A stretch of 64,000 nucleotides of DNA from Nitrospirota bacterium (GTDB taxonomy: Bacteria; Nitrospirota; Thermodesulfovibrionia; Thermodesulfovibrionales; Dissulfurispiraceae): the NCBI GenBank assembly GCA_004321915.1, contig SCQE01000021.1, forward strand, positions 186,001 to 250,000. Reading direction: 5' to 3'. The notes beneath the pieces were generated by a model. It was not told where the DNA came from, did no database searches, and saw only the letters and a list, made by a program, of their open reading frames with translations. The position numbers and the translations under genes are program-made. This document shows positions 284-5,086 of this stretch, piece by piece. Every line of letters starts with the position of its first letter. Position 1 is the stretch's first letter.

Positions 284-424
284 ACAAAAAAAATACTTTG
301 AGCTATTGAGGCATCTATGTCGCCAAGAGTTTTTTATGACGATTTCTTCCACCGGCAAAATATAGAACAATTACGGGCAACTATTGCAGTATGATTGAAA
401 TTAAACAGAAGGCTGGAATATCGC

Positions 425-943
425 ATGCGTAAAGGCTACATACAGGTTTACACAGGCAACGGCAAGGGCAAGACGACCGCCGCGCTCGGGCTTGCCTTGC
501 GGGCTGCCGGCGCAGGTCATAAAGTCTTTATTGCGCAGTTTATCAAAAAACGCAGGTGCAGCGAGCATAAGGCGCTCGAAAGATTCAGCGATGTTATAAC
601 CGTAAAACAGTACGGCAAGGGGTTTATCTTGAAAAAGAAACCCTCGGCTGCCGATATAGGCGCTGCGCAGAAGGCCGTCACGGAATTAAAGGCTATAGTG
701 AAGTCAGGCGCTTATCATGTGGTAATACTAGATGAAGCCAATGTTGCGGTATACCACAAACTTATTTCGATAGAAGACCTTTTAGCTCTCATCGAATCCA
801 AACACAAAAAAACCGAACTGGTAATCACAGGCAGGTACGCGGACGAAAAAATAATAGAGGCCGCAGACCTTGTCACCGAAATGAATCCGCTCAAACACTA
901 TGTCTACAACGGGATCAAGGCAAGGGTCGGCATCGAAAAGTAG
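425..943 (+). CDS. cobO: Cob(I)alamin adenosyltransferase, CobA/CobO type
   Basis: Transfers the adenosyl group of ATP to cob(I)alamin or corrinoid precursors in coenzyme B12 formation. The P-loop 'GNGKGKTTAALGLALRA' sits at the extreme N terminus, as is typical of this family, and 'VVILDEANVA' supplies the second acidic motif; at 172 residues the length is normal. I chose ATG 425 because the family usually starts a few residues before 'IQVYTGNGKGKTT'; a TTG at 395 would add ten residues unlike the family. The last 44 bases overlap cbiD, so the two genes are likely translationally coupled. No cobalamin riboswitch was seen in the 141 bases upstream. Confidence 0.9.
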   Translation: MRKGYIQVYTGNGKGKTTAALGLALRAAGAGHKVFIAQFIKKRRCSEHKALERFSDVITVKQYGKGFILKKKPSAADIGAAQKAVTELKAIVKSGAYHVVILDEANVAVYHKLISIEDLLALIESKHKKTELVITGRYADEKIIEAADLVTEMNPLKHYVYNGIKARVGIEK

Positions 944-2180
944 GCTGCTCCGCTCCGGCTACACCACCGGCGCTTGCGCTGCTGCGGCTGCAAAGGCAGC
1001 GGCAATAATACTGCTCGAAGGACAAGAGGCAATAGGCGATAGGCAAGAAGTTGTTCATGTGGGCAGTGTTGAAATCCCCTTCCCCGACGGCAGCAGGCAT
1101 TCATTCAGGGTTCAGGGTTCAGGGTTCAGGGTTCAGGACAATGTCGCGTGGGCTTCTGTCATCAAAGACGCAGGCGACGATCCGGATGTTACCAACGGGG
1201 CGGAAATAATAGCTGAAGTGAGAAGTAAGAAGTTAGAAGTGGGAGCTGACAATTCTGAAAATAATACTTCTGTTTTCTCACTTCTGAGTTCCCACTTGAT
1301 CTCTATCAAAGGCGGCCCCGGTGTCGGGAGGATTACCAAGCCCGGACTTTCGATACCTGTCGGAGAACCTGCAATTAATCCTGTGCCGCGAGAGATGATA
1401 AGAACGGCAGTCAAGGAAGCAGTCAAGGAAGCAGTCAACAGTCGTCAGTCAACAGTCGTCAGTCAAGGGGAGACAAAGGGGGACTGTACCAGATTTATGG
1501 GCGAAGCCGTAGAATCGGGACTGTCCCCATCTATAGAAATAACCATTTCGGTGACTGACGGTGAAGAGCTTGCGAAGAGGACCCTTAACAGCAGACTCGG
1601 TATTATCGGCGGGATTTCTATACTCGGCACGACCGGTATAGTGCGTCCGCTTTCTGCAGAGGCATGGACGGCCTCGATAAAATCGGCTATGGACGTGGCC
1701 AAGGCCGTAGGCTGCGATGAGGTTGTTCTTTCGTCAGGCAGAACTTCCGAAAAAGCGCATATGAAGAAATTCGGTCTTCCCGAGGAATCCTATGTGATGA
1801 TGGGCGATTATCTTGAGTTTTCATTTAAGGAGGCTGCGACGCACGGGTTCAAAAGGATACATCTCTGCGCGCAATGGGCAAAGATGCTCAAGATCGCGAT
1901 GGGCACGCCGCAGACCCATGTGCGCCACGGGGTTATAGAACTCAGAAAATCGGTTGAGTTATTGAAAGGTCTCGGTATACAAATGCCTGACGGACGGGAG
2001 TTCAATACAGCGCGCGAGATATACGAATATCTCGCATCCTCATATCCGGACTCTTATTTGACATTCCTCGAAAAGGTTTGTTCTCGCGCAAAAGAAACAA
2101 CTGGGCAACTCACAAAAGGGGTTCCTGTAACCGGCCATCTTGTATCATACGGCGGCCTGATAATAGCGGACAGCGAATAA
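900..2180 (+). CDS. cbiD: Cobalt-precorrin-5B C1-methyltransferase CbiD, with in-frame repeat insertions
   Basis: CbiD methylates C1 of cobalt-precorrin-5B in the anaerobic cobalamin pathway. Hallmarks are 'RSGYTTGACAAAAAKAA' near the start, 'ASVIKDAGDDPDVTNGAEI', 'GGPGVGRITKPGL', 'VGEPAINPVPREMI' and 'LGIIGGISILGTTGIVRP'. The protein has 426 residues, while family members are commonly about 340-380. The excess falls between conserved blocks, where the DNA is tandem or inverted repeat (about residues 41-52, 68-79, 107-131 and 175-207). The frame is kept through all of them and the conserved blocks are intact, so the enzyme is probably functional. It starts inside the end of cobO. Confidence 0.9.
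   Translation: MSTTGSRQGSASKSRLLRSGYTTGACAAAAAKAAAIILLEGQEAIGDRQEVVHVGSVEIPFPDGSRHSFRVQGSGFRVQDNVAWASVIKDAGDDPDVTNGAEIIAEVRSKKLEVGADNSENNTSVFSLLSSHLISIKGGPGVGRITKPGLSIPVGEPAINPVPREMIRTAVKEAVKEAVNSRQSTVVSQGETKGDCTRFMGEAVESGLSPSIEITISVTDGEELAKRTLNSRLGIIGGISILGTTGIVRPLSAEAWTASIKSAMDVAKAVGCDEVVLSSGRTSEKAHMKKFGLPEESYVMMGDYLEFSFKEAATHGFKRIHLCAQWAKMLKIAMGTPQTHVRHGVIELRKSVELLKGLGIQMPDGREFNTAREIYEYLASSYPDSYLTFLEKVCSRAKETTGQLTKGVPVTGHLVSYGGLIIADSE
1104..1137 (+). repeat. Tandem heptamer TTCAGGG, 4.9 copies, inside cbiD
   Basis: Four exact copies of TTCAGGG (1104-1131) are followed by a partial TTCAGG. The period of 7 is not a multiple of 3, so each repeat is read in a different frame and gives the repetitive peptide 'FRVQGSGFRVQ'. 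The total insertion nevertheless leaves the downstream CbiD frame open. Confidence 0.95.
1215..1297. repeat. Inverted AGAAGT-rich repeat block inside cbiD
   Basis: GAAGTGAGAA (1215-1224) is the exact reverse complement of TTCTCACTTC (1275-1284), and AAGTGGGA (1237-1244) is the exact reverse complement of TCCCACTT (1290-1297). The two pairings cross each other, so this is not a simple hairpin but two copies of one AGAAGT-rich unit in opposite orientation. The encoded 'RSKKLEVGADNSENN' and the following residues look foreign to CbiD. Confidence 0.8.
1407..1527. repeat. Tandem 12-mer and 14-mer plus GGGACTGT repeats inside cbiD
   Basis: GCAGTCAAGGAA is repeated about 2.6 times from 1407, then a 14-base unit containing CAGTCGTCAGTCAA is repeated twice up to about 1466. 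GGGGGACTGTACC near 1479 and GGGACTGTCCCC near 1517 form a pair of short GGGACTGT units, the second of which is palindromic in its outer bases. The block encodes repetitive 'AVKEAVKEAV' and low-complexity residues between conserved CbiD segments. Confidence 0.8.
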
Positions 2181-2207: not shown

Positions 2208-2237
2208 TTGCAAGTCGCAGTTTCTATGTTTTATTAT
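2208..2237 (+). promoter_or_regulatory. Possible sigma70-type promoter for the cNMP/motA/motB operon
   Basis: TTGCAA (2208-2213) and TATTAT (2232-2237) are separated by 18 bases, in the 94-base gap after cbiD and about 37 bases before the next start codon. Both boxes are imperfect. The Shine-Dalgarno-like GGGGGCGAG follows downstream. Confidence 0.4.
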
Positions 2238-2274: not shown

Positions 2275-3405
2275 ATGGGCACCTACAACATCAAGACCTT
2301 TTATAAAGGACAGCTTATATGCAAAGAGGGACAGACCGGCGAGACCGCTTTTCTGGTAAAGAGCGGGGCGGTCACCATTTATAAAACGGTAAATAACAAT
2401 CAGGTGACCTTGGCCCATATCAAGCCGGGCCAAGTTTTCGGAGAGATGGGTGTGCTTAGCGGCGAGCCGAGAAATGCGTCTGCTGTGGCGGACGATTTCT
2501 GCGAGATCATCATAATTGACAAAGATGTGCTGGAACAGCATCTCCGTGAAAGTCCCAAGATAATTCAGGCCATAACAAAATCTGCCATAGACAGGCTTCA
2601 CAAAACAAACAAAAAGATTTCCGAACAGCCGGCAGGCAATGTGTTTATGAGCGTCTGCAGCATAATCGAGTTCATGTATCTGTCCAACAACAAACAAGGC
2701 GATGATACCGGAATACCGTATCACGAAGTTTCCCAGAGGATAAGGGAGATACTCTCCATCCCGCAGCTCGAAATCGATACGATCATCAAAAAACTGACAA
2801 GCATAAATATACTCGATGTGCTTGAGAAGAAAATCGGGTCCGAGGTTGTCAAGTCTTTAAAGATGCCGGATTCCAAAACATTCTTGAAGAAGGCAAAGCA
2901 GTTTTATGATGAATACCGGGACACGCTCCAGTATGCGGCGCAGGAAAGGGAGTTTATAGACATTCATGAGTTTGCGGACATCGTAAATACAACGCCCGAG
3001 CTTATTTACAAGAAGATCGGGACCGGAGAGATCCCGGACAATATTTTCTTCATACATAAACGGGCTGCCGTTGACTGGTCGCGCGAGGTGGGGGAGGGCT
3101 TTTTCAAGAAGGTGAAGAGGCGTTCACTCAATATCGAGGACCTGTCCGAGGTGGACGATATTGTGTATGTCGACGGAAACACGCTTCAGGAGGCGTTTTC
3201 GAGACTCGGCCATTACAAGATGGGGATTCTGGCTTTTATTGCCGGAGAGGAGGCCAAGGCCAAGATTTACGCAAATCTTTCATCGAAGATTGCAGGAGTT
3301 GTTAAAGAACAGGTCAGCGCCCGGCAGGAAGTTGACGAAATAGAAGCGGGCGATATCGAGAAAGAACTTATCCTTCTCATCAAATCCCTTAAAGGCGTGA
3401 AGTAG
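2275..3405 (+). CDS. Cyclic-nucleotide-binding protein with FliG-C-like C-terminal domain
   Basis: Residues ~8-120 form a cNMP-binding domain. Its phosphate-binding cassette keeps the key Glu and Arg ('FGEMGVLSGEPRNASA'), so nucleotide binding is plausible. A helical middle follows, with a possible HTH-like segment ('HEFADIVNTTPELIYKKI', ~228-245). Residues ~290-376 align almost without gaps, from memory, to the C-terminal domain of the flagellar switch protein FliG: 'DIVYVDGNTLQEAF', 'AKIYANLSSKIAGVVKE' and 'EKELILLIKSL' match FliG 'xLVxVDDxSIQ', 'EKFLRNMSxRAADIL' and 'AILLIVRRL'. The charged torque-helix residues look poorly kept. It is followed immediately by motA (stop and GTG overlap) and motB, so a role in motor control is inferred. 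The strong SD GGGGGCGAG supports ATG 2275. Confidence 0.75.
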   Translation: MGTYNIKTFYKGQLICKEGQTGETAFLVKSGAVTIYKTVNNNQVTLAHIKPGQVFGEMGVLSGEPRNASAVADDFCEIIIIDKDVLEQHLRESPKIIQAITKSAIDRLHKTNKKISEQPAGNVFMSVCSIIEFMYLSNNKQGDDTGIPYHEVSQRIREILSIPQLEIDTIIKKLTSINILDVLEKKIGSEVVKSLKMPDSKTFLKKAKQFYDEYRDTLQYAAQEREFIDIHEFADIVNTTPELIYKKIGTGEIPDNIFFIHKRAAVDWSREVGEGFFKKVKRRSLNIEDLSEVDDIVYVDGNTLQEAFSRLGHYKMGILAFIAGEEAKAKIYANLSSKIAGVVKEQVSARQEVDEIEAGDIEKELILLIKSLKGVK

Positions 3406-4181
3406 TGAATATAGCCACAATACTCGGCATTATCTTCGGGATCGGCATCTTGTCGTATGCGACCTCAGAGGCGACCACAAGTCTGCGCGTTTTTTTTAAT
3501 TTCTCGGGGATAGCGATCGTTCTCGGCGGCACTATCGCCGCCACTTTTATATGTTATCCGCTCAAACAGGTCATGCAGGTGTTCAGCGCTTTCTTTGTGG
3601 TCATGAAAAGGGAAGATCTTCCAATAGGAAACTATATCCACGAACTTGTTTATATTTCGGACCAGTTGTCTACGAAAGGCAGAGTCAATTTAGAAAAAGA
3701 GCTGCCGGGCATCGAGAATATTTTCCTGAAAGACGCGGTCCAGATGCTTATCGACGGGTATTCAAGGGAAGAACTCAGGGAGATACTGGATACGAGGATA
3801 AACCAGACCTATGAGCAGGAAATGGCTTCCACCGGCGTTTTCCGGTCGATGGCAAAATTCTCGCCCGCCTTTGGCCTCGTCGGAACGCTTATAGGACTTA
3901 TCAGCATGATGCAGACTATGGGCGGCGACATAAAACAGGTCGGCCCTGCAATGGCGGTTGCGCTTACCGCTACCCTGTACGGGATCCTTTTGGCCTATAT
4001 GGTATTTCTTCCGATAGCGGTAAAGGTCGAGGGCAGGATCGAGGAGCGTATCATTCTTATGTCTGTCATCAGGGACGGTATACTTTTTATGAAAGACAAG
4101 GCGCCGGGCCCGATTGTTATGGACAAATTAAAGGCTTACCTGCCGCCAAGAAAATGGGCTTCCATTAAGAAAAGAAGTTGA
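3405..4181 (+). CDS. motA: Flagellar stator protein MotA
   Basis: Inner-membrane ion-channel subunit of the flagellar stator. It has 258 residues and four hydrophobic segments (about 2-22, 27-50, 150-172, 182-205), with a large cytoplasmic loop between the second and third. The conserved 'SPAFGLVGTLIGLI' precedes segment 3, and 'GPAMAVALTATLYGILLAY' holds the small and hydroxyl residues of the channel-lining helix. The GTG start at 3405 overlaps the upstream stop codon by one base, which implies coupled translation with the cNMP/FliG-like protein. Whether the ion is H+ or Na+ cannot be told safely. Confidence 0.9.
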   Translation: MNIATILGIIFGIGILSYATSEATTSLRVFFNFSGIAIVLGGTIAATFICYPLKQVMQVFSAFFVVMKREDLPIGNYIHELVYISDQLSTKGRVNLEKELPGIENIFLKDAVQMLIDGYSREELREILDTRINQTYEQEMASTGVFRSMAKFSPAFGLVGTLIGLISMMQTMGGDIKQVGPAMAVALTATLYGILLAYMVFLPIAVKVEGRIEERIILMSVIRDGILFMKDKAPGPIVMDKLKAYLPPRKWASIKKRS

Positions 4182-4206
4182 TATATCCGATACCGCAGTA
4201 TTCAAT

Positions 4207-4869
4207 ATGACAAAAAAGAAGCTGTTTCAGAGAAGAAGAGAGGAAGAGGCAGAGCAGTGGCAACTCGCCTTTGCCGACATGGTCATACAGCTCATGTGCT
4301 TTTTCGTTCTGATTGCCGCAGTTTCGACTGTTGATGTGGAGCAGTATAAGACCATAGCGCAGTCTCTAGGAAAGGCCCTCGGCACAGATATAAAAGGTCT
4401 GCAGCAGAAGGAAAAAGACCTTCAAGACATAAAGAAAGAACTGGAAACCGTGGTAGGCAGTCAGCAGGACGCAATGGCCTTTGAGGTCAGGGCCAACGGG
4501 GTTGCGATACAGCTCAAGGAAGGGGTCTTTTTCTCTCTCGGCAAGGCCGACCTTATGGAGGACGCGTTTTCTATCCTGAAAAGCGTTACGCCGAGCTTAA
4601 TGAATATGAAATACCGGATCACTATTGAAGGGCATACGGACAATATCCCGATGCAGTCGGCCCAATTCCCCTCCAACTGGGAGCTCTCTGCAGCGCGCGC
4701 AAGCGCTGTTGCGCGATTTCTTATTGAACAGGGATTTCCTAAGGAGAAGATACAGGTGCTCGGATTGGCCGATACTAAACCCCTTGTGCCTAATACGGAC
4801 AACAGCAGCCAGCCCATACCCGAAAATCAGGCAAAGAACCGCCGCGTAGTGATTCTTATAAGTCAGTAA
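4207..4869 (+). CDS. motB: Flagellar stator protein MotB
   Basis: Peptidoglycan-anchoring stator subunit and partner of MotA. The single N-terminal transmembrane helix carries the ion-binding Asp in 'FADMVIQLMCFFVLIAAVS' (~21-39), and a short linker leads to an OmpA-like domain (~95-215) with 'ITIEGHTDNIP', 'NWELSAARASAV' and a final 'NRRVVILIS', which bind the cell wall. At 220 residues it is slightly short for MotB. It lies 25 bases after motA with no obvious strong SD. Confidence 0.9.
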   Translation: MTKKKLFQRRREEEAEQWQLAFADMVIQLMCFFVLIAAVSTVDVEQYKTIAQSLGKALGTDIKGLQQKEKDLQDIKKELETVVGSQQDAMAFEVRANGVAIQLKEGVFFSLGKADLMEDAFSILKSVTPSLMNMKYRITIEGHTDNIPMQSAQFPSNWELSAARASAVARFLIEQGFPKEKIQVLGLADTKPLVPNTDNSSQPIPENQAKNRRVVILISQ

Positions 4870-4896: not shown

Positions 4897-4982
<86 letters not shown>

Positions 4983-5086
4983 ACATGCCTGACTGAGCAG
5001 GTCTTTTATTTTAGCATAAACCCTCGCTTCATTAGCACAATGTGGTAAAATATCAAGTCTTAACAACATTTTTTGAGGAGCCTCAA

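Follow-up and report, generated by a model that had tools for sequence, protein, structure and literature searches.

The window analysed here, a 64,000-nucleotide stretch of a 3.6 Mb Nitrospirota draft genome (G000), encodes a 376-amino-acid protein in which a cyclic-nucleotide-binding (cNMP) domain is joined to FliG_C, the domain by which the flagellar rotor protein FliG contacts the stator, and the gene directly precedes those of a MotA-like and a MotB-like stator protein. Our best reading, which we rank ahead of four rivals and hold, by a slight lean, to be the probable one, is that this cNMP-FliG_C protein is a soluble, cNMP-responsive clutch, brake or recruiter that binds the stator. It is supported by the stator-contact domain itself, the coupling of the gene to motA, purifying selection, the lack of rotor domains, and the cyclase gene that neighbors a divergent homologue in another genome (G154).

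All three genes lie on the plus strand of the window. The fusion gene begins with ATG and spans positions 2275..3405, stop codon included (ORF call and Pfam), followed by the motA-like gene with a GTG start at 3405..4181 (Pfam and best PDB matches) and by the motB-like gene, whose product carries a channel Asp and an OmpA domain, at 4207..4869 (Pfam and alignment to PomB). The GTG of motA starts on the last base of the fusion gene's TAG stop, i.e., the two genes overlap by one base and motB follows, exactly as a preliminary description of this region had placed them. A promoter-like site, TTGCAA-18-TATTAT, was found just 5' of the fusion gene (2208..2237, plus strand) by a consensus scan that returned 3 sites where 4.1 were expected in shuffles, hence no excess; its counterpart in the related genome MYbin3 reads TTGCAA/TATGAT. 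The three-gene unit is bounded upstream by cobalamin genes (cobO-like and cbiD, window 395-2180) and downstream by a tRNA-Leu(CAG) on the minus strand (window 4898-4983).

Among 176 genomes of the order, the fusion was detected in three, namely two members of the window's genus (the source genome and MYbin3) and G154, a member of another family; phyla outside the Nitrospirota were covered by exact peptide patterns taken from the window sequence alone. The MYbin3 protein is 88% identical to that of the window and the G154 protein about 40%, and MYbin3 displays the same gene order, with a fusion-motA overlap of four bases. MYbin3 has been described as the genome of a magnetotactic member of the Nitrospirae with affinity to Thermodesulfovibrio and the Dissulfurispiraceae (PMC5955933, PMC9376291), and the fusion may thus bear on steering in such cells (PMC5955933). 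An occurrence in three of 176 genomes would also fit a chance or decaying fusion without motor function. However, dN/dS against MYbin3 was 0.05 for the fusion gene and 0.042 for its FliG_C domain (0.014 for motA, 0.031 for motB), which indicates purifying selection, including on FliG_C, and a member of another family retains the architecture although only about 40% identical. Purifying selection therefore largely refutes such a fusion, which we find barely credible. No cNMP-FliG fusion came up among the titles and abstracts listed by searches of open-licence papers on such fusions, on second-messenger motor control, or on FliF-FliG fusions.

The homology of the fusion C-terminus to FliG_C (FliG_CC; residues 291-372, 3145..3390, plus strand) is, on sequence comparison, firm. 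Pfam FliG_C (PF01706) aligned residues 291-372 to positions 19-100 of its 108-position profile with 23.6 bits, just over the curated cut-off of 23.3 bits, and the homologues scored 25.2 bits in MYbin3 and 34.6 bits in G154 (E 2.5e-8). In the reciprocal direction, a family profile made without any FliG, from the C-terminal ~150 residues of all three members, was run on 396 Nitrospirota genomes and gave a match in 213 of these, with a best E-value of 1.7e-9 beyond the family itself. Apart from the three members, the matches listed were mostly ORFs the size of FliG (326-390 aa), aligned through the profile's FliG_C portion, and at 24 of 28 inspected loci a distinct ORF fragment bore the FliG EHPQ and MFxF motifs. 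When the same profile was compared to the PDB, Thermotoga maritima FliG came out on top and FliG accounted for most matches. A mixed alignment of CRP-like and FliG sequences put the FliGs at the N-terminus, and an alignment of the C-terminal half was used instead. The profile aligned to T. maritima FliG (1qc7, positions 4-84) without gaps, and the alignment to 18 Nitrospirota FliGs was gap-free over FliG_C. The FliG likeness first noted in this protein is thus borne out by Pfam, by the reciprocal profile and by the PDB, without the one-residue gap that had been described with it.

Structure prediction is consistent with this assignment. An AlphaFold2 model of residues 220-376 reached a pLDDT of 85 (about 95 over FliG_C), and Foldseek searches with this model placed FliG first. 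The modelled C-terminus superposes on FliG_C: across 83-87 residues, VIA scored it at Z 11-14 against the C-terminal domains of FliG, including 12.4 for the FliG of the MotAB-FliG complex 8ucs (rmsd 2.4) and 14.0 for C-ring FliG, and at Z ≤5 against non-FliG rows. Since the alignment behind the model contained FliG rows, the model is not fully independent of FliG and shows compatibility more than homology, for which the sequence searches are the proof.

Within this domain, the gap-free FliG alignment and helix 118-130 of the model place the torque-helix equivalent at residues 337-349 (3283..3321, plus strand), where K338, E345 and Q346 align to what we take to be R281, D288 and D289 in E. coli FliG numbering. 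In all three members the R281 site is Lys and the D288 site Glu or Asp, the D289 site is Gln in both genus members and Glu in G154, and the equivalents of K264 and R297 are lost (F321 and D354). Of the MotA-facing charges of FliG (K264, R281, D288, D289 and R297), two are therefore kept, two are lost, and the D289 site varies. In the flagellar motor, FliG_C is reported to lie between two MotAs, which hold it like a pincer through the torque helix (PMC11302681). A protein carrying this domain might be imagined as an alternative C-ring subunit that replaces some of the FliG copies. However, neither Pfam nor the sequence revealed a FliG_N, FliG_M, EHPQ or MFxF motif in the fusion protein, and without FliG_N, FliG_M and EHPQ, i.e., without the FliF and FliM contacts, it is not possible for it to replace FliG in the ring by the usual contacts. 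One canonical full-length fliG is present in the source genome (C68), within a flagellar cluster where FliF, FliH, FliI, FliM and a hook protein were recognized by reading the sequence, not by profile. Taken together, these absences and the canonical fliG argue that the fusion is not a normal rotor subunit, and a place in the C-ring appears very unlikely; where the preliminary description spoke of a rotor or clutch component, the clutch is the better half.

The co-encoded stator genes are well supported by profiles, with 91 bits to MotA_ExbB for the motA product, and 57 bits to MotB_plug and 65 bits to OmpA for the motB product. PomA and MotA structures were the best PDB matches of the former, and the latter aligned to PomB with an FAD motif that includes the channel Asp. 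In a MotA tree, the window MotA falls with PomA-like MotAs (support 88/88) on a long branch, and it is 97% identical to the MYbin3 MotA and at most 38% identical to any other MotA in the order. The MotA loop of the window's genus is without an Arg kept by all other aligned MotAs, with Ser-Thr or Thr-Thr instead and the next Glu kept, at a site that by alignment is presumably PomA R88-K89. This loss of charge on both the MotA loop and FliG_C, seen within a single genus and hence one lineage, may reflect co-divergence of the two partners. A reading of the pair as Zorya defence genes (ZorAB) was rejected, as PADLOC gave no ZorA match for MotA, and ZorB matches arose via general MotB similarity only. 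A count of the remaining motor genes, proposed along with the original description, showed that, besides the single fliG, the genome has two more genes of the MotA/ExbB family at C49 and one at C143. At C49 (L040:1720-4563), motA, motB and the genes for a PilZ protein and for a second MotA-like protein lie consecutively and make up the genome's other stator set.

A FliG_C scan of the order further identified FliG_C ORFs of 474-505 aa directly before motA in five genomes (L126 in G254, L127 in G152, L128 in G344, L129 in G360, and L125 in G422). According to Pfam, these ORFs combine a FliF_C-type domain (over the cut-off in two and just under it in three) with FliG_M and FliG_C, and are followed 3' by motA and a gene for a MotB-like protein; most also have another gene of the latter type and one for a TPR protein. 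The pairing of a FliG_C protein with MotAB is thus recurrent in these relatives, and the window holds its soluble, sensor-bearing version. Because four of the five genomes (G254, G152, G344 and G360) have no other FliG_C match, the FliF-FliG/MotAB units are probably non-flagellar rotor-stator units. The cNMP-FliG_C protein could itself be what moves in such a machine outside the flagellum, powered by the MotAB encoded with it, and would then be their soluble equivalent. The common order of FliG_C then motA and the divergence of the window MotA fit this proposal. However, the window protein has neither the FliF part nor FliG_M, and its FliG_C resembles flagellar FliG more than it does the FliF-FliG fusions, the family profile having no match in G152. 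The MotA tree also places the window MotA nearer to PomA-like MotAs, the MotAs of FliF-FliG units being the sister group of both (all on long branches), and the source genome has a flagellar cluster. A separate machine therefore seems unlikely. In another genome, two ORFs of 450 and 505 aa lie close together (G412:C61, L130) with three FliG_C matches between them and a FliG_M in the 450 aa ORF; no MotA was recognized among the ORFs seen there.

The N-terminal half of the fusion carries the predicted sensor. Its cNMP-binding domain (PF00027; residues 7-91, 2293..2547, plus strand) scored 77.9 bits (E 5.9e-22), lies above the Pfam cut-off in all three members, and matches PKA and PKG regulatory subunits in the PDB. 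The ligand-binding Glu and Arg to which the preliminary description had drawn attention, E57 and R66 in the phosphate-binding cassette, are invariant in the window, MYbin3 and G154 proteins, and residue 67, after the Arg, is Asn in the window protein and Thr in the other two. A CRP-like winged-helix region probably follows (residues 122-200, 2638..2874, plus strand), as suggested by tblastn, in which CRP-like Nitrospirota proteins of 210-240 aa match the fusion to about residue 187-213, and by a helix-helix-helix-strand-strand pattern (pLDDT about 60-77) in a first, full-length AlphaFold2 model; with only three family members as input, that low-confidence model (pLDDT 43.5) is the basis for this pattern alone and for no other fold claim. 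A protein of 209 aa (G174, L042:2918-3547) matches fusion residues 3-213 and ends before the linker and FliG_C. The linker itself (residues 223-275, 2941..3099, plus strand) is modelled as a small helical domain with a pLDDT of about 75-86. It has no Pfam match, and VIA matched it weakly to the folds of MerR and CbpM (Z 3-4), so that it may be called weakly MerR-like, although the list of fold matches leaves room for other folds.

Such an N-terminal half, which resembles the CRP-like cNMP and winged-helix proteins common in Nitrospirota, and the weak MerR-like matches of the linker would both suit a CRP-type transcription factor, whose FliG_C would sense free MotA or stator status and which would feed this back to motility genes, its own operon among them. 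However, no Pfam HTH match was found in the fusion protein, the segment at residues 117-200 that includes the winged helix is acidic (net charge -3 in the genus and -2 in G154), the MerR-like segment has a net charge of -5 in G154, and the G154 fusion gene is not beside recognized flagellar genes. We thus regard a transcription factor as rather unlikely.

In G154, a 6 Mb genome, no motAB adjoins the cNMP-FliG_C gene, which is the last of a same-strand run (L039:908-9165) that encodes a periplasmic-binding-protein receptor, an MCP-type protein, an Ion_trans-PilZ protein, a class III cyclase and the fusion, the latter starting 12 bases after the cyclase stop. The receptor has a weak ligand-gated-channel-like membrane part, and the Ion_trans-PilZ protein is a voltage-gated channel fused to PilZ. 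When aligned to CyaB, the cyclase has Glu and Gly at its specificity positions, the same pair as guanylyl cyclase Cya2 (PMC4215837), and is without the usual transition-state Asn, a position at which the active cyclase Ma1120 naturally has Ala (PMC4215837). Class III cyclase matches numbered 19 in G154, and four over the cut-off in the window genome, where Lys, the adenylyl-type residue, was seen wherever the motif was found by pattern. Based on these specificity residues, the fusion may bind cAMP in the window's genus and cGMP in G154. The G154 context strengthens the idea of a second-messenger route put forward at the outset and weakens the accompanying one that the protein is dedicated to one stator set, which agrees with the gene order in two genus members and not with G154. 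A fuller version, in which a direct cyclic-mononucleotide line leads to the rotary motor, with a sensory signal in G154 raising cGMP so that FliG_C grips or releases stators, and with the effector in the window's genus paired with its own co-diverged stator, is a tentative proposal that we put forward with some doubt.

Returning to the clutch, brake or recruiter reading, the protein would consist of a CRP-like front half (cNMP domain and winged helix), a helical linker domain and a stator-contacting FliG_C. Binding of a cyclic nucleotide would expose or hide FliG_C, which could then dock between adjacent MotA cytoplasmic domains in the manner of rotor FliG and, once docked, compete with, hold back or engage stator units. 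Its target would probably be, in the window's genus, the diverged MotAB encoded alongside it, and in G154 whichever MotAB is at work in the cell. This reading is weakened by the lost K264 and R297 sites, the Gln at the D289 site in the genus, the lack of motAB beside the G154 gene, and the missing Asn of the cyclase.

Overall, this analysis suggests possible direct control of a rotary motor by a signal of the cAMP or cGMP type, and the FliF-FliG/MotAB units point to a reusable module in which MotAB drives a FliG_C partner. To our knowledge, direct second-messenger control of flagellar motors is so far that by c-di-GMP and PilZ proteins. If the clutch reading is true, a sensor bearing the rotor's own stator-contact domain would represent a different way to control torque; as far as we know, no cyclic mononucleotide has been seen in such a role before. 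Compared with FliG, the window protein has a homologous C-terminal domain with the same predicted fold and a torque helix retaining the R281 (as Lys) and D288 (as Glu/Asp) charges, but it has a cNMP sensor in place of FliG_N and FliG_M, and changes at the K264, R297 and, in the genus, D289 sites. With the CRP/FNR family it shares a cNMP domain followed by a winged-helix-like region, which is however acidic and extended by the linker and FliG_C. Like the FliF_C-FliG_M-FliG_C units, it is a FliG_C protein encoded directly before motA, whereas those units include a membrane FliF-type part, FliG_M and a second MotB-like gene, and no nucleotide sensor. Its proposed logic is closest to that of PilZ proteins of the YcgR, FlgZ and MotI type, soluble second-messenger receptors that act directly on the flagellar motor or stator. 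These non-homologous proteins use PilZ and c-di-GMP along with a separate motor-binding surface, whereas the window protein uses a cyclic-mononucleotide domain and carries FliG_C instead.
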